NCBI RefSeq assembly: GCF_014697475.1
Contig: NZ_JACJRV010000054.1
Span: 1-48,050 of the forward strand
Direction: 5' to 3'
DNA: 48,050 bases
DNA from: Nostoc sp. FACHB-152
Lineage (GTDB): Bacteria; Cyanobacteriota; Cyanobacteriia; Cyanobacteriales; Nostocaceae
The position numbers and the translations under genes are program-made. Position 1 is the stretch's first letter. Each line of letters begins with the position of its first letter. Under the pieces are notes generated by a model that was given only the letters and a program-made list of their open reading frames with translations, was not told where the DNA came from and made no database searches. Below, piece after piece: positions 9,402-16,500 of the stretch.

Positions 9402-9974
9402 ATGACATCCACTGCATCAGAAAAAGTCCGTTGGACAACTGCTGACTTAGAGTTATTTCCTGACGACGGCAAGCGTTATGAGATAATCGACTGAGAATTG
9501 TTTGTGACCAGAGCGCCTCATTGGAAACATCAAAAAGTTGGTGATAATGTTTGTACGCAGCTAAAACTTTGGTCTAGCGAAACAGAGTTAGGCGATGCTG
9601 CTACTGGTGTGGGAATTATTTTCAGCGATGCTGATAATGTAATTCCTGATGTAGTTTGGGTAAGTAATGAACGTTTATCAGAAATATTAGATGAAGCGGG
9701 ACATTTAACAGGTGCGCCAGAGTTAATTATAGAAGTGCTTTCTCCTGGCGAAGTGCAGGAAAAACGAGATAAGCAGTTAAAGCTAAAACTATACTCAGTT
9801 CAGGGCGTGCGGGAATACTGGATTTTTGACCGGGTAAGAGAAACAGTTGAAATTTACCGTCGGGAAAATGGCGTTTTAAAATTAGCGGCGACTTTGTATA
9901 AAGAAGATAATTTAACTAGTCCACATCACGAATGTTATGTTCAGGGCGGGTCAACTAACAATATTATGGAATAA
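9402..9974 (+). pseudogene. Uma2-family protein with nonsense codon 31
   Basis: From the ATG at 9402 the frame encodes MTSTASEKVRWTTADLELF and GKRYEIID, then TGA at 9492-9494, then ELFVTRAPHWKHQK. The expected residue at the stop is Gly (YEIIDGELF), so a GGA to TGA change explains it. The rest of the Uma2/PD-(D/E)XK-like core is intact, with VIPDVVWV, LIIEVLSP and REYWIFD. Near the 3' end the usual GF.C.V..LF ending is lost, suggesting a second shift after about 9920. A start at TTG 9498 would lack the first 31 residues. Its last 11 bases overlap the convergent toxin-like gene. Confidence 0.8.
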
Positions 9975-10356
9975 ACAGCCGACCGACACCCTTGTAATTA
10001 TCAATGTCTAAAACTATCTCAATGATACGTTCAACACAACGTTCTCGATAATCTGCTTCATCAAGGCGATCAAGACTTCCAATAGTTAATACAGGGAATG
10101 AATGTGCTGTATTTTCCTGACGTATAATCTGTTCAAGTGAATCCTCACCTTTCATATTTCGATTAGCTGTGAGTATCATCATCTGATTTTCTTGAGCATA
10201 ACGCCAAACGACTCGATCGCTACTTTCCATCGATAGCCCAACCTCTCTAAACGTGACAAACCGGATGGACACGAGTTCAAACCAGCCAGTTTTTGTCAAG
10301 ATACCAAGAAAAACGAGGGCGTAGCCATCTAGATTGTAGTCAACTAAAAAATTCAT
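9964..10356 (-). CDS. DUF5615-like (PIN-like) putative toxin
   Basis: A protein of about 130 residues starting at the ATG at 10356 (MNFLVDYNLDG), preferred over an upstream start because DUF5615 proteins begin with this strand and an acidic residue (D6 here). The motif order fits the PIN-like fold: N-terminal DYNL, a central VVWRYAQENQMMILTANR that resembles the family's ILTxD segment, and a C-terminal helix. This member is longer and more divergent than typical 110-residue ones. Its start overlaps the upstream DUF433 gene by 17 bases, indicating translational coupling. DUF433/DUF5615 pairs are treated as type II toxin-antitoxin systems, but the target is not known. Confidence 0.65.
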   Translation of the reverse strand: MNFLVDYNLDGYALVFLGILTKTGWFELVSIRFVTFREVGLSMESSDRVVWRYAQENQMMILTANRNMKGEDSLEQIIRQENTAHSFPVLTIGSLDRLDEADYRERCVERIIEIVLDIDNYKGVGRLFIP

Positions 10357-10729
10357 GTTTTTCAGCGTTGCGTCTTGCTTTTTGCTCCTCAAGTTTTGCC
10401 CAAAGAGTTTCTTGTCCTGGCTTGTGGGGCATTGCTGCAATTCGCGCATAGTGTTCGCGGTTACGCTCTTCCCAATACTGGCGAATTTCTTCTCTGTTTT
10501 GGAGAACTTCTTGATATTCAGCTTCTATCTGAGTTTTGTTTGTCTCAATATAAGACAATGCTGCGTTAATTTGTCCGTCAGTTAGGTTAAATTTATCACG
10601 AATTAGTTTAGATGGATACTGAGCTTTGAGGAGATCCATAACATCATAAAGGCTGGTGCGTGTGCCTGCAATCGTCAGTCCACGCTCAGTGCGAATAATC
10701 AAGGTTTGCTTATTAGATGTTGGAGTCAT
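10340..10729 (-). CDS. DUF433-type putative antitoxin
   Basis: A 129-residue protein with an N-terminal DUF433 helix-turn-helix-like domain. Its strand pair RTERGLTIAGTRTSLYDVMD is followed by helices ending DKFNLTDGQINAALSYIETN (to about residue 70). A long charged helix, Glu/Arg-rich and probably coiled-coil, continues to about residue 125. Paired with the PIN-like protein encoded downstream and overlapping it by 17 bases, it should act as the antitoxin and possibly as an autorepressor. The HTH half would bind DNA and the charged tail would bind the toxin; this division is inference. The start at 10729 lies just downstream, in reading direction, of a large palindrome. Confidence 0.7.
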   Translation of the reverse strand: MTPTSNKQTLIIRTERGLTIAGTRTSLYDVMDLLKAQYPSKLIRDKFNLTDGQINAALSYIETNKTQIEAEYQEVLQNREEIRQYWEERNREHYARIAAMPHKPGQETLWAKLEEQKARRNAEKHEFFS

Positions 10730-10859: not shown

Positions 10860-12185
10860 TTAACGATAATCTGGAGTTTGAATATTCCGCAGACGGGCAG
10901 CATCACGCATACCATAATCAGCACGAGTGAAGCGATTTAATTGTTGTTCAAAAAACTCACGATTGGCTTGCAAATGTTTAGGATTCGGGTCATCTAACGG
11001 ATATAAAAGTGCAGTTCTCAATGCTTGAATTACCGCAGAAGTAACGTTATACATTGAGCGTTGGAAACTAACACCCAACTGAATCAACATATCATCTTCA
11101 CCACGGCAATGTTGTTTGTAGTAATCAACAAGATATTGTGGTAAGAAGTGCAACATATCTTGCATTAATAATGTTGGTGGAATACCAGCTGTTCCCACAG
11201 GAAAGACATCGGCGTAGAGAATGCCGTAGTGGAAATCTTTTTGGTCATCTGGTACTTGTCCTGCTTGGGCGTTGTATGATTTTGTACCTCTAAATGGGGC
11301 AGTACGATAGAAGACAGCTTCGACGTAGGGTAACGCTGCTTCGTACAGCCAAGTGAAGCCTTTTGATTTGGGGATAATTTCGTAGCATTCGCCACGGATA
11401 TAAACATGATGGTAAATCGGACGACCTGCGATCGCAAATATTCCATTCACCAAAAAGTTCATCGCATCAGGTACGCCCTTAAACCCGCCTTCATCGTAGA
11501 TGTCGGACATTTCAAAGAACACCGGGGCCATGACTTCCCAGAATAAGCCGAGGTTAGAGTAGTACGACATCTGGCGGCACTGTTCCAAAAACATATCAGG
11601 GAACAGTTTGTACAGTCCTAGCATTACGGGGTTGCCTTGGAAGAATGCTTTAATTGCCCTGTCAGCGTTGGCTTTGTATTCTTCCGAGTCGAGATATGCG
11701 TCAAATTGATTAACTGGCGCATACATATGCCGATGCCAAAGCATTGCCCGCATACAAGCTTCCGCAAATTCCATATTTATGCGATCGTGGGATAAGTGAT
11801 GCAATAACTTTGGCATTTTGAAGGTTTCACCTTTTTCCATAAATGCCAAAAGTTCAGGATGGGCTGTTGCTTCACCGCGCCAAATTCTTAAATCAGCAGT
11901 ATCGCCAGCATAATGATTATGAAGGTCTAAATACTCTTGAGGTAAGAAGTATTTAAAAAAAGCAAATGGCTCTAAAAATACTTGTTCAGCTATATATAAT
12001 AAGTCACGCCAGTAAAAATCCATCGGTACAGCATAAGCTTTATAAATACCGATAATTTGCATCAAGTTTTCTGGCGTGTCTGGTAACATTGAACCGCCAG
12101 CTTCTAAACGATGAATTACTTCGGCAAATTCATGGCAAGAAGGTGGAAGTTTAGTAGTAACAGTTTTTTCTGGAGTCTGTACCAT
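10860..12185 (-). CDS. cupB: CO2 hydration protein CupB/ChpX (NDH-1MS' subunit)
   Basis: A 441-residue member of the ChpXY/Cup family. These proteins cap the distal end of specialised NDH-1 complexes on the thylakoid membrane and turn CO2 into bicarbonate inside the cell. The conserved segment KLLHHLSHDRINMEF contains H130 and R135, which match by position the zinc ligands reported for CupA (from memory). No signal peptide or membrane helix is present. It is the last gene of the ndhF-ndhD operon, 27 bases after the CDP-alcohol transferase gene, with AGGA before its ATG. I chose CupB over CupA because no CupS-like fasciclin gene follows and the operon differs from ndhF3-ndhD3-cupA-cupS; CupA remains possible. 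Confidence 0.75.
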   Translation of the reverse strand: MVQTPEKTVTTKLPPSCHEFAEVIHRLEAGGSMLPDTPENLMQIIGIYKAYAVPMDFYWRDLLYIAEQVFLEPFAFFKYFLPQEYLDLHNHYAGDTADLRIWRGEATAHPELLAFMEKGETFKMPKLLHHLSHDRINMEFAEACMRAMLWHRHMYAPVNQFDAYLDSEEYKANADRAIKAFFQGNPVMLGLYKLFPDMFLEQCRQMSYYSNLGLFWEVMAPVFFEMSDIYDEGGFKGVPDAMNFLVNGIFAIAGRPIYHHVYIRGECYEIIPKSKGFTWLYEAALPYVEAVFYRTAPFRGTKSYNAQAGQVPDDQKDFHYGILYADVFPVGTAGIPPTLLMQDMLHFLPQYLVDYYKQHCRGEDDMLIQLGVSFQRSMYNVTSAVIQALRTALLYPLDDPNPKHLQANREFFEQQLNRFTRADYGMRDAARLRNIQTPDYR

Positions 12186-12212: not shown

Positions 12213-12809
12213 TTAGACAGTAGAAATATTGGTTGTTTGTAATTGCTGACGTATCTTTAAAGCATGAAAAATACTCAAAACATCATGTGTCCAAACTGGC
12301 AATATTAATGTCATTGCAATTTCTTCCACACTGTAGATAGTTCCAGCAGTACAAGTTAGCCATAAAGTTATGCCAGCGTAATTAAATCCGAACAGTGCCA
12401 CAATGGCAATAAATAATGTAATTCCCCAAAATTTGGCTGAATAAGTGTGATAGCTTGCGGGTTTGCCATACTTGATTAAATTAACTATCCACCACACGAT
12501 TTGAGCAAAAATTACCATCAACAAAGGTAGTTTGTAAGCTATCAAAATATCCCGATATCCCAGCCAAGCACTGAAAAATATGCAACTGAAAAGGCAGGTA
12601 TCAGCCCAGCTATCAGCTTGTCGCAATTTAGCATTGCTAACACCAAGTCGCCGGGCAATAATGCCATCAAAAATGTCGGAAAGAAAAGCAGCAGTAAAAC
12701 CTACTAAAAACCAAATACTCGTATCACCATCCCAAGCATCCCACAGGAGGAAGGGCGCTATTAAAAAGCGAAATAGTACAAGACCACTGGGAATTAAGGT
12801 GAGATTCAT
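12213..12809 (-). CDS. CDP-alcohol phosphatidyltransferase family protein inside the NDH-1MS' operon
   Basis: A 198-residue membrane protein with five or six hydrophobic segments. The CDP-alcohol phosphotransferase motif D-x2-DG-x2-AR-x8-G-x3-D-x3-D is nearly complete: D45, D48, G49, A52, R53, D66 and D70 are present, but Leu62 stands where Gly is usual. Members join CDP-diacylglycerol or another CDP-alcohol to a small alcohol in phospholipid synthesis. The four Asp that bind metal and substrate are kept, so activity is plausible. It lies 36 bases after ndhD and 27 before cup, with AGGAGA before its ATG, so it is clearly part of the operon. Its substrate and any link to CO2 uptake are unknown. 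Confidence 0.8.
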   Translation of the reverse strand: MNLTLIPSGLVLFRFLIAPFLLWDAWDGDTSIWFLVGFTAAFLSDIFDGIIARRLGVSNAKLRQADSWADTCLFSCIFFSAWLGYRDILIAYKLPLLMVIFAQIVWWIVNLIKYGKPASYHTYSAKFWGITLFIAIVALFGFNYAGITLWLTCTAGTIYSVEEIAMTLILPVWTHDVLSIFHALKIRQQLQTTNISTV

Positions 12810-12845
12810 ATTTTCTCCTGTATCGGTTGCGTAAATCTATTGTTA

Positions 12846-14348
12846 CTATTTCAACGCAACTTCAGGAATTACGGTTTTTTCCGCTGGGATAATTGCCGCT
12901 ACCATTGCTGTGGTAGTAGGTTCACTCCAACGCACTAACCAAGTAGGTTGGACTCCTAAAAAGATGATTAAGCTTGCCAAAATGAGTGCTGGAACTTTCT
13001 CAGACCACAATACCTTGGGATAGTAGGCTAAATCATTGTCGAGTCTGCCAAAACAAGTGCGGTTCAGCAGGATAACGAAGTACACCGCAGTCAAGCCACT
13101 AGCGACGACACATAATATTGTCGGGATGGGGAAGACTGAAAAACTACCTTGAAAGACGATAAATTCAGCGATAAATCCTGTTAAACCGGGAATACCAGCA
13201 CTAGCCATACCACTTAATACAAGTAAGGCACTAATTAAAGGTATGCCACGAATCGGACTCATTAAACCGTTGAGTTTATCTAACTCTCTTGTGCCGGCTT
13301 TGGCTTCAACAACTCCTACCAAATGGAAGAGAATGGCAAGGATGATGCCGTGGCTAAACATTTGGGAAACTGCACCGACTAGTGCAAGGGTGGTACTAGC
13401 AGCACTGGCAAGCAACACATAGCCCATGTGACCGATGGAACTGTATGCTACCATGCGCTTGATATCGTTTTGCGCGATCGCCACCACTGCCCCATAAATT
13501 GCACTAATTGCGCCCCAAATGGCCAAGGTTGGTGCCACAATACTCCAAGCGTTAGGGAACATTCCCATACCAAACCGTAATAGTCCGTAGGTTCCCAGCT
13601 TGGCTAACACACCACCTAACAGAATAGCGATAGGTGCAGAAGCTTCAACGTAAGCATCAGGTAGCCATGTATGGAAGGGAACTAAAGGAATTTTGATACC
13701 AAAACCCAGGATGATTCCGGCTAGCAACAGCAGTTGCAGTCCAGCCGAGAGGGTTTGAGTAGAGACAGCATCAAAGGCGAAGCTTGTGGAACCTGTCAGC
13801 CACACCATACCCAAGAAGGTGGCTAAAATTAATGCGCCGGAAACAGCAGTGTAAATTAAAAACTTAATTCCTGCATAAGCCCGTTTTTCGCCGCCCCAAA
13901 TCGAAATTAACAAATAGAAGGGGATTAATTCCAATTCGTAGAACAGGAAAAACAGGAGTAAATTTTCTGCCAGGAATGCCCCAGCAACGCCACCACTAAC
14001 TAATAAAATCAGTGAATAAAATAGCCGTGGGCGTTCAGTGTTTTGACTACTGCTGTAAATAGCAATCCAAGTGAGGAGGCTATTTAAAACCAACATTAAT
14101 ATTGATAGCCCATCTACTCCTAGTTGATAGCTTAAACCTAGGGTTTCATTCCAAGGTAAATATTCTTGAAACTGCATCCCAGGAGTGCTGAGGTCAAATT
14201 TCAACAGGATGAATAGATTCCACAACAGGACTAAACCAGATATGGTGAGGGCTACCAAGCGCACGCGATTCGGGGGAATGGAATTACTAGGCCAAAACCC
14301 AATAATTAAAGCAGCGATGATTGGTGTCCAGATTAAAACACTCAGCAT
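12846..14348 (-). CDS. ndhD4: NAD(P)H-quinone oxidoreductase proton-pumping subunit NdhD (NdhD4-like)
   Basis: A 500-residue, 13-14-helix antiporter-like subunit of photosynthetic complex I. It is recognised by the segments LLLFFLFYELELIPFYLLI (functional Glu in TM5), GFGIKIPLVPFHTWLPDAYVEA (TM7/8 region with the conserved Lys and the HTWLPDA motif) and NDIKRMVAYSSIGHMGYV. Specialised NdhD3/D4 subunits replace NdhD1 in CO2-uptake NDH-1 complexes, and the adjacent cup gene shows that this is one of them. The 4 type is inferred from operon structure. A 292-bp gap containing a MITE and a heptamer array separates it from ndhF, so it may also use its own promoter. Confidence 0.85.
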   Translation of the reverse strand: MLSVLIWTPIIAALIIGFWPSNSIPPNRVRLVALTISGLVLLWNLFILLKFDLSTPGMQFQEYLPWNETLGLSYQLGVDGLSILMLVLNSLLTWIAIYSSSQNTERPRLFYSLILLVSGGVAGAFLAENLLLFFLFYELELIPFYLLISIWGGEKRAYAGIKFLIYTAVSGALILATFLGMVWLTGSTSFAFDAVSTQTLSAGLQLLLLAGIILGFGIKIPLVPFHTWLPDAYVEASAPIAILLGGVLAKLGTYGLLRFGMGMFPNAWSIVAPTLAIWGAISAIYGAVVAIAQNDIKRMVAYSSIGHMGYVLLASAASTTLALVGAVSQMFSHGIILAILFHLVGVVEAKAGTRELDKLNGLMSPIRGIPLISALLVLSGMASAGIPGLTGFIAEFIVFQGSFSVFPIPTILCVVASGLTAVYFVILLNRTCFGRLDNDLAYYPKVLWSEKVPALILASLIIFLGVQPTWLVRWSEPTTTAMVAAIIPAEKTVIPEVALK

Positions 14349-14580: not shown

Positions 14581-14643
14581 GGAGCATTAAGTCTTGAGCA
14601 TTGAGCATTAATCATTGATCATCGACCATTGACCGTTGACTTA
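14581..14643. repeat. Degenerate heptamer array abutting ndhF
   Basis: Eight or nine 7-bp units of the form TGAGCAT/TGATCAT/CGACCAT/TGACCGT run head to tail and end with the last unit providing the ndhF stop codon (TTA on this strand). The pattern is an STRR-type array of Nostoc kind with base changes between units. Confidence 0.7.
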
Positions 14644-16500
14644 AAACATCAACTCTAAAAACTGTATGCCCCAGTATGGCCATGTAACCCACATTCCTAA
14701 AAGACCTACGCCTAAGAGGACGGTGAAAGCATAAGTTTGAGTTTGACCAGAGGTGCTGTATTTCAAACCTTCTCCACCCAGTAAGGAGAACAACCCAACG
14801 AAGTTAACAATGCCATCAACTACGAAGCGGTCAATCATATCAGCGAATTTAGCAAGTTGGGCAACGCTGAAAATGATGGTCATACGATAGAGTTTTGGAG
14901 TGTAAAAGTCGTAAGCCAACAAATCTTGCAAACCTTTCCAAGGTAGGCGAACTGGTTTGGGAATATTGCCAAGATAAATTACGCCACCGACGCTACAACC
15001 AAAAATACTCGACCAAATTAGTAAGAGTGCGACATCTTTATTCAGGGTTGCCCAGTTAGGTAAGAGTGATAAGCTTTGCAACACTAAAGGCAGATGTAGG
15101 ACAAATCCGAATAAAATTACCATTGGCAGTACCATTGGCCAGTGAACTTCAGGCGATCGCTCACTCATTTGCTTAGGTTTACCACCAAAAATCAAGCCAA
15201 ATTCTCTAGATAAACTAACGGCTGTTAAAGCATTAACTGCTATAACTATCCCAACTAGCCAAGGCTGAGTATCCCATAACCCATCAGCTAATTCCATCAA
15301 TGCCCAAAAGCTACCTAAAGGTGGGAACCCAATCAATCCTAATGTCCCAACAATAAAAGCTAAACCAGAAATGGGACGGCGTGACCAAAGTCCGCCTAGT
15401 TGAGTGACATCTTGGCTGATGCTGTTCCAGATAACGCCGCCTGTACTCATCACCAACAGTGCAGCAGATAAAGCATGAGTAAGTACTAGTAACAGTGCTG
15501 CATCATCTTGCCGTGTGCCTACAGCAATAAACACCAAACCCAGGTAAGCACTAACAGAATAAGATTGGCAGCGTTTAACGTCAATTTGGGCGATCGCAAT
15601 TAAAGAAGCACCAAGTGCTGTAAATGCACCTATCGCTACCATTGCGGCAGAAACTACAGGCGACAGAGTTAACACAGGTTGCAGTTTTATCAGCACCCAT
15701 GCGCCACTCGCAACTACTACCGAGTTCCGCAAAATGGTACTGGGAACTGGGCCTTCCATTGCTTCATCCAACCACAAATGTAGAGGGAATTGGGCGCATT
15801 TACCCATCGGCCCGGCAATTAAGGCTAAACCAACTAAGGTAATTACTGTAGGATCAACTTCGGCAGTTTTTGCCCATACAGCTAGTTCGTTGTAATCCCA
15901 TGTTCCTGCTAGAGGCCACAAACCTAAGACCCCAATCAACAAAAACAAGTCTCCTACACGTTTAGTTAAGAAAGCATCTCTCGCCCCACTAACCACCAAC
16001 GGCTGACTAAACCATAAGCCAACTAGCAGGTAGGTTCCTAAAGTGAGGATTTCGAGAATTACATAACTAAAGAACAAATTATTACATAGAGCTAAGGCAC
16101 ACAATCCCGCTTCAAATAAACCTAATAAAGAATAGAAGCGACCCCAACCCCAATCCATTTCCATGTAGCCAATGGCATAAATTTGCGCTAGCAAATTTAA
16201 CCCCGCAATTACTACCATTGCGCCTACACTAATTGACGAAATTTCTATGGCAATGGTCAGGTCTAAACCTGCTGTTGATAGCCAATGAATAAATACTTCT
16301 TGGGGTGGATGATTCCAAGTTGCTTGTAAGGCGATCGCGCTATGGAGAAACGCCAAAAAGGTCATCACTAAATTTACATAACCAGCGGGTCTTGGCCCGG
16401 TCTTACGAATGATCCCTGGCGACCAAGGTACGGCTAATAATCCGCCAATTAAGGCATATAAAGGAACTAGCCAAACAGTCTCTAGGAGAAACTGAGCCAT
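14641..16500 (-). CDS. ndhF4: NAD(P)H-quinone oxidoreductase subunit NdhF (NdhF4-like)
   Basis: A 619-residue distal proton-pumping subunit of NDH-1, with about 15 membrane segments. Recognisable parts are LFFSYVILEILTLGTYLLVG (TM5 Glu), FLTKRVGDLFLLIGVLGLWPL, MGKCAQFPLHLWLDEAMEGPVPSTILRNSVVV (the usual HxWLxDAMEGPTP motif with small changes) and a C-terminal lateral-helix region. It is shorter than respiratory NdhF1 (about 670-700), as expected for the NdhF3/F4 type that forms the CO2 channel to Cup. It is the first gene of the operon, with AGAGGTAA before the ATG. The 348 bases upstream carry an inverted repeat that may be regulatory. Confidence 0.85.
   Translation of the reverse strand: MAQFLLETVWLVPLYALIGGLLAVPWSPGIIRKTGPRPAGYVNLVMTFLAFLHSAIALQATWNHPPQEVFIHWLSTAGLDLTIAIEISSISVGAMVVIAGLNLLAQIYAIGYMEMDWGWGRFYSLLGLFEAGLCALALCNNLFFSYVILEILTLGTYLLVGLWFSQPLVVSGARDAFLTKRVGDLFLLIGVLGLWPLAGTWDYNELAVWAKTAEVDPTVITLVGLALIAGPMGKCAQFPLHLWLDEAMEGPVPSTILRNSVVVASGAWVLIKLQPVLTLSPVVSAAMVAIGAFTALGASLIAIAQIDVKRCQSYSVSAYLGLVFIAVGTRQDDAALLLVLTHALSAALLVMSTGGVIWNSISQDVTQLGGLWSRRPISGLAFIVGTLGLIGFPPLGSFWALMELADGLWDTQPWLVGIVIAVNALTAVSLSREFGLIFGGKPKQMSERSPEVHWPMVLPMVILFGFVLHLPLVLQSLSLLPNWATLNKDVALLLIWSSIFGCSVGGVIYLGNIPKPVRLPWKGLQDLLAYDFYTPKLYRMTIIFSVAQLAKFADMIDRFVVDGIVNFVGLFSLLGGEGLKYSTSGQTQTYAFTVLLGVGLLGMWVTWPYWGIQFLELMF

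Follow-up and report, generated by a model that had tools for sequence, protein, structure and literature searches.

The CDP-alcohol phosphotransferases carry the signature D-x2-D-G-x2-A-R-x(7,8)-G-x3-D-x3-D (PROSITE PS00379, quoted in PMC9385802), and its eight residues have been called absolutely conserved (PMC4634129). Published structures place the motif Gly position in the cytidine cleft (PMC6506517, PMC4634129), this second Gly of the signature being assigned to the cleft wall (PMC6506517). On TM1, the Thr/Ser that closes the motif P(D/N)xx(T/S) is said to contact the pyrimidine (PMC4634129), and the residue after the fourth Asp is described as always Lys or Arg (PMC6506517).

The CO2-uptake complex NDH-1MS has been described as a structure with the 50 kDa CupA (PMC6981117). 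In Nostoc PCC 7120 the three operon genes alr4156, alr4157 and alr4158 were up 2.5-, 2.0- and 5.3-fold after CO2 stepdown (PMC7699953). Because they are reported as consecutive, PCC 7120 appears to lack at that place the transferase gene described here. In Synechocystis, CupS and CupAR are extra genes of the cupA operon (PMC11456788). They have in common with the transferase gene that a cupA operon carries them; they differ in being located after cupA, and the word lipid does not occur in PMC11456788. An extra CDP-alcohol transferase has also been described in Nostoc, in the phosphonolipid cluster of a lichen Nostoc (PMC5987646), but that is another gene cluster, and the two are likened by description, not by sequence. 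In the open-licence Nostoc/Anabaena literature the term CDP-alcohol occurred, among the matches listed, only in that paper. The open-licence literature gave no description of a transferase gene in the ndhD3/ndhF3/cupA operon; among the matches listed, no ndhD3/ndhF3/cupA paper held the term CDP-alcohol and none paired it with ndhD4. No open-licence paper pairing a CDP-alcohol transferase with TVP38 was found.

The window analysed here is the whole stretch of 48,050 nucleotides from Nostoc sp. FACHB-152 (contig NZ_JACJRV010000054.1). On its minus strand the order is ndhF, ndhD, transferase gene and chpXY/cup (Table 1), with 36 bases separating the transferase gene from ndhD (end 12846) and 27 bases separating it from cup (start 12185). 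The open reading frame, its own ribosome-binding site and both distances agree with the initial annotation, which had given no strand. In the 30 of 45 in-operon loci for which an ATG could be assigned, a sequence with AGGA stands ahead of the start codon. Predicted promoter and terminator sites were no more frequent than in shuffled sequences.

Table 1. Features of the transferase locus in the window. The 3 in ndhD3 was assigned from the position of the gene between ndhF3 and cupA.
Feature	Position	Strand	Length or form	Basis
CDP-alcohol phosphotransferase-fold gene, divergent subfamily	12213..12809	minus	198 aa, ATG start	ORF, PF01066, AlphaFold2, Foldseek
Signature D45xxD48GxxAR...L62xxxD66xxxD70	12600..12677	minus	Leu replacing the usual Gly	translation
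Ribosome-binding site of the transferase gene	12814..12819	minus	AGGAGA	sequence
ndhF3	14641..16500	minus	619 aa	TIGR01960 ndhF3_CO2, 1027 bits (cut-off 588.7)
ndhD3	12846..14348	minus	500 aa	NDH-1 subunit M model NF005611, 918.7 bits
cupA / chpY	10860..12185	minus	441 aa	TIGR01964 chpXY, 763 bits; 732 bits to 6tjv_P

Other elements of the locus were noted. Two overlapping genes after cupA on the same strand (9964-10729), DUF433 (PF04255) and DUF5615 (PF18480), resemble a toxin-antitoxin pair. Degenerate 7-base tandem repeats occupy part of the ndhF-ndhD gap (14582-14640). The fasciclin model PF02469, which we take to be the fold of CupS, had six matches in the own genome and none on the window's contig.

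The type of operon was assigned from its Cup protein. The window Cup matched chain P of 6tjv (437 aa, 'Tlr0906 protein', from Thermosynechococcus) with 732 bits, versus 367 bits for a second cup gene of the same genome (376 aa), which has its own ndhF and ndhD and, from the translations, neighbours that we presume to be sbtA-sbtB-like. The identification of 6tjv as the NDH-1MS structure rests on a single mention of 6TJV in PMC6981117, and chain P is probably CupA, given its length, the 50 kDa CupA described there and its ChpXY match. Judged by this Cup comparison, the window operon is therefore of the high-affinity, low-CO2-inducible ndhF3-ndhD3-cupA type (NDH-1MS) and not NDH-1MS', the label it had carried in the initial annotation.

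The window protein matched the Pfam model CDP-OH_P_transf (PF01066) with 56.4 bits against a cut-off of 22. Its AlphaFold2 model (75 sequences; pLDDT 89.4, pTM 0.81) supports the six-helix fold of the superfamily, and the top Foldseek match was PgsA 7drj_A (probability 1.00, TM 0.62, 17% identity, E 0.0078). DIPP synthase, PIP synthase and AF2299 were also on the Foldseek list, with acetate permeases mixed in at lower probability, and no Foldseek match was at or below E 0.001. A PDB search with the single sequence gave no significant match; with the alignment, PgsA came up at E 0.57 and a carotene monooxygenase at E 0.026, the latter regarded as a chance match. By profile and predicted fold the protein is assigned to the CDP-alcohol phosphotransferase superfamily, with the exact signature failing.

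No curated enzyme model accepted the window protein. It was absent from the matches to the PgsA model TIGR00560 at E 0.01, and the same genome holds a separate PgsA (170.1 bits, cut-off 109.1). The scores against ClsA, the CDP-alcohol-type cardiolipin synthase (NF053678), and PssA (TIGR00473) were 20.5 and 19.3 bits, under the cut-offs of 240 and 107. Weak profile similarity to these two models was nevertheless common among the 75 aligned members, with matches at E 0.001 to ClsA in 62 (best E 1.4e-07) and to PssA in 56 (best 4.2e-08), versus three to PgsA (best 4e-06). Identity with PgsA, PssA or ClsA was rejected on the curated cut-offs and on residue checks. A phosphatidylserine synthase feeding a PS decarboxylase was likewise rejected, since PF02666 was found in five of 60 relatives and not in the own genome. 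Among these five carriers only G050 holds the transferase gene, and in G019, G033 and G050 another CDP-alcohol transferase lies within ~4 kb of the PS decarboxylase.

Residues D45, D48, G49, R53, L62, D66 and D70 are identical in 75/75 aligned copies, so that two earlier readings, that the metal-binding Asp residues are kept and that the motif Gly is Leu, extend to every member of the alignment. Six of the 80 named copies are excluded from it: four damaged ones and L100 and L108, whose match overran the stop. The latter two are intact and also have Leu at the Gly position, as do three plasmid copies. The motif Gly is kept in 39 of 40 other CDP-alcohol transferases of the same 60 genomes. It was found in all 30 PgsA controls examined (60 were found in these genomes); ten other CDP-alcohol transferases were fetched, nine of which show the motif, always with Gly, and L240, a 27-bit match, has no visible motif. 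The Leu is the reason that PS00379 is not matched in any of the 75 copies. The window protein and 74/75 copies overall match the remainder of the pattern, the exception having Asp for Ala.

Two further positions differ from the described enzymes. The TM1 Thr/Ser position, with a register based on Pro-Arg spacing and one profile alignment, is Val or Ile in 75/75 copies versus Thr or Ser in 30/30 PgsA controls. At the position following the fourth Asp, 72/75 copies have a non-basic residue (Val, Ile, Thr, Asn or Leu) and 3/75 have Arg, versus Lys in 30/30 controls. With the Asp residues kept and these three positions changed, the metal site appears to be intact and the contacts to the donor base and acceptor altered. 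Activity on CDP-lipids is therefore not assured, as the Gly-to-Leu change falls in the published cytidine cleft (PMC6506517, PMC4634129). The window protein thus shares with PgsA the predicted fold, the four Asp and D-x2-D-G-x2-A-R, and differs from it in the motif Leu, in P-S-x-x-V in place of P(D/N)xx(T/S), in lacking Lys after D4 and in its absence from the TIGR00560 matches. With the known structures of PIP synthase and AF2299 / DIPP synthase it has the fold and the metal-site residues in common, but identity is 13-17%, the nucleobase-pocket residues are changed here and the post-D4 residue is mostly non-basic.

The transferase gene is held by 21 of 60 relatives (own genome included). In 15 of them, again counting the own genome, an intact copy immediately precedes the long cup gene; G022 retains fragments at that site, and the other five carry the gene elsewhere. 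Two genomes of the same genus, G002 and G005, are without it. In the phylum sample, 21 of 386 cyanobacterial genomes (own genome included) have the gene: 11 intact between ndhD and cup, one as a remnant there (G347) and nine elsewhere. A scan of named genomes with two short peptide patterns found 104 relatives, of which 80 were kept, all cyanobacterial by title. The gene adjoins ndhD and/or cup at 45 of these 80 loci and does not at 35, and at all 45 it is on one strand with the operon genes. Carriers include Calothrix brevissima NIES-22 and Nostoc carneum NIES-2107. Thus, as first proposed, the gene of a lipid-type CDP-alcohol transferase does lie within a CO2-uptake NDH-1 operon, and this arrangement recurs. 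The survey of related operons that had been suggested gave a mixed answer: the gene does recur intact before cupA in 15/60 relatives, but it is no general part of the complex, as an NDH-1MS subunit would be. Its lack in many relatives makes it look like an optional addition and not a core component of NDH-1MS. Viral origin was rejected, since none of 80 viral contig stretches with a pattern match encodes a relative.

Compared pairwise with 14 of the 45 in-operon loci (dS > 1 in some pairs), the window gave dN/dS values of 0.056-0.126 for the transferase gene and 0.03-0.08 for ndhF, ndhD and cup over the same pairs. The gene is under purifying selection. Its value was low yet the highest of the four genes in 10/14 pairs, so it is kept less tightly than its neighbours. 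Over 43 loci its divergence correlated with that of ndhF (r 0.86), ndhD (r 0.83) and cup (r 0.80), with 0/999 permutations as high, which is compatible with inheritance together with the cupA operon. The same ndhD-cup gap is occupied in several families. An NdhD+CupA tree, built quickly from 85 rows (45 carrying the gene and 40 lacking it, drawn from two different searches), implies no fewer than 14 gains or losses, and well-supported branches force 11 of these. Remnants of the gene remain in two further genomes, G022 and G347, and some of these events are therefore losses. Damage was seen in four of the 80 named copies: the front part is missing from L094 and L099, and the frame is interrupted by an internal stop in L095 and by a shift in L121.

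On the tree of the gene itself, at least five changes between in-operon and other locations are needed, and branches with good support force two of them. One clade of 22 rows (clade B) never occurs in the operon. Residues that mark clade A versus clade B (e.g. W106, W107, A118, G156) are common to the in-operon copies and nearly all non-operon copies of clade A. Comparing 41 operon with 12 non-operon copies of clade A, the operon set being mostly of one order, no position was fixed differently. At some positions (e.g. 20, 78, 136, 150, 153) the 12 non-operon copies have another commonest residue or looser conservation: Trp150 is present in 41/41 operon versus 6/12 non-operon copies, and Phe20 in 39/41 versus 3/12. 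Operon-specific residues were considered and rejected, because the residues at the 11 positions separating operon copies from clade B are for the most part also found in the 12 non-operon clade A copies. The shared clade markers and the lack of a fixed difference indicate a conserved protein core independent of operon location, and since members exist outside the operon, the function needs no operon.

Among the neighbours of non-operon copies, only a VTT-domain (TVP38 type) gene recurs directly adjacent, in clade B. It follows the transferase gene at six of 22 clade-B loci, four identified by Pfam and two damaged (tblastn); at L110 and L111 the contig ends just past the transferase gene. The same pair is present on a plasmid of Nostoc NIES-3756. 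VTT-domain (TVP38/TMEM64) genes were seen downstream at L112, L118, L119, L126 and L200, a possible lipid-related pair. On plasmid pMIC7113.04 of Allocoleopsis franciscana PCC 7113 (L199:247-6567) a relative follows a Tn7-like tnsA, Mu-type transposase, tniB and tniQ set; the family may therefore travel as cargo. Outside cyanobacteria the one relative found, 32% identical, is carried by a Thiothrix plasmid; it too has Leu in place of the motif Gly but keeps Thr on TM1.

Other genes occur within the operon. A carbonic anhydrase-like gene stands between ndhF and ndhD in 24/44 in-operon loci and in 11/40 relatives without the transferase gene, one of them weak; three were checked with Pfam, one being partial. 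At L054:5400-6131 and L067:5533-6258, for example, such a gene (PF00484) between ndhF3 and ndhD3 has a twin-arginine-like start. The window's 292-base ndhF-ndhD gap holds no carbonic anhydrase-like gene. Two of nine large ndhD-cup gaps in relatives without the transferase gene hold another plausible open frame; stop-to-stop open stretches of 139 and 127 aa were seen in this gap at L193 and L195. The gap inserts are compatible both with an operon gathering related functions and with permissive gaps.

The reading we tentatively prefer, at not quite an even chance, is that the gene encodes an accessory membrane enzyme that makes a minor lipid and is read with the low-CO2 operon, and is no NDH-1 subunit. 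From sequence and predicted fold, the protein would be a six-helix membrane enzyme that retains the four-aspartate two-metal centre, with changed nucleobase-pocket residues and mostly without the basic residue found after the last Asp in PgsA and PIP synthase. The altered pocket and the loss of that residue suggest that a nucleotide-activated lipid would donate a phospho-alcohol group to a small alcohol that carries no phosphate. The product would probably be a minor membrane lipid, neither phosphatidylglycerol phosphate nor phosphatidylserine. Gene order, strand and spacing, with the known induction of the operon elsewhere (PMC7699953), suggest that in the window's lineage the gene is read from the ndhF3-ndhD3-cupA transcript and the lipid made when CO2 is scarce. 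The transferase would be an optional accessory that NDH-1MS does not need. The idea of the initial annotation that the gene might supply a special lipid for the complex, or anchor it in a membrane domain, is likewise hypothetical. The preferred reading has against it the Gly-to-Leu change in the cytidine cleft, decay in some relatives, absence from the cupA operon of most relatives, the members outside the operon, the weak Foldseek E-values and the unrelated permeases among the matches. A more specific proposal, which we regard as rather unlikely, is that a hitherto unrecognised branch of the fold with a rebuilt pocket uses a non-cytidine donor and makes its lipid on demand with the CO2-uptake complex; the change of the motif Gly to Leu, together with that of the TM1 Thr/Ser to Val/Ile in the cyanobacterial members, would point to a donor other than a cytidine-activated lipid. 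The main rival, less probable than the accessory enzyme and still to be taken seriously, is a mobile gene, useful elsewhere, that sits in a permissive gap of a well-expressed operon and borrows its promoter with no tie to CO2 uptake. Such a gene would explain the patchy presence in both genome samples, the many gains or losses on the operon tree, the plasmid copies with one beside a Tn7-like set, the other open frames in large ndhD-cup gaps and the finding that no residue is fixed differently in operon copies and their close kin elsewhere. It accounts less well for the use of the same gap in several families, the co-divergence with the operon and the strong purifying selection, and the frequent carbonic anhydrase-like gene in the ndhF-ndhD gap may mean that the operon collects related functions.

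That the protein is instead a structural or assembly accessory of NDH-1MS, placed like CupS or CupAR and using the transferase fold as a membrane scaffold, seems improbable. Its position between ndhD3 and cupA, the precedent of CupAR, which is operon-encoded and found with the complex in Synechocystis (PMC11456788), and the tighter Trp150 and Phe20 of an operon set of mostly one order would fit such a role, but the catalytic Asp residues are kept in every aligned copy and the gene is intact next to cupA in only 15/60 relatives. The absence of any fixed difference between operon and close non-operon copies also counts weakly against an adapted subunit. We give very little credence to a second phosphatidylglycerol-phosphate synthase that raises the phosphatidylglycerol supply at low CO2: PgsA is the closest solved fold, but the pgsA model is matched by only 3/75 members at E 0.001 or better, the window protein not among them, the TM1 Thr/Ser, motif Gly and post-D4 Lys of the controls are all changed, and the genome has its own PgsA. 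A pseudoenzyme or decaying gene, to which the lost motif Gly, the four damaged copies and the two remnants could be attributed, is hardly to be expected with catalytic Asp identical in 75/75 and dN/dS well below 1.

Phosphatidylglycerol is regarded as the only major phospholipid of cyanobacteria. Many filamentous species maintain by selection, within their low-CO2 operon, an additional transferase outside all named enzyme models, which suggests an undescribed lipid. The invariant Leu puts to the test how strictly the eight signature residues are required in the CDP-alcohol phosphotransferase fold. The presence of the transferase in a low-CO2 operon suggests that the composition of the membrane and the uptake of CO2 may be linked and, if the proposal of a rebuilt pocket were true, there would be a thylakoid lipid tied to carbon acquisition.
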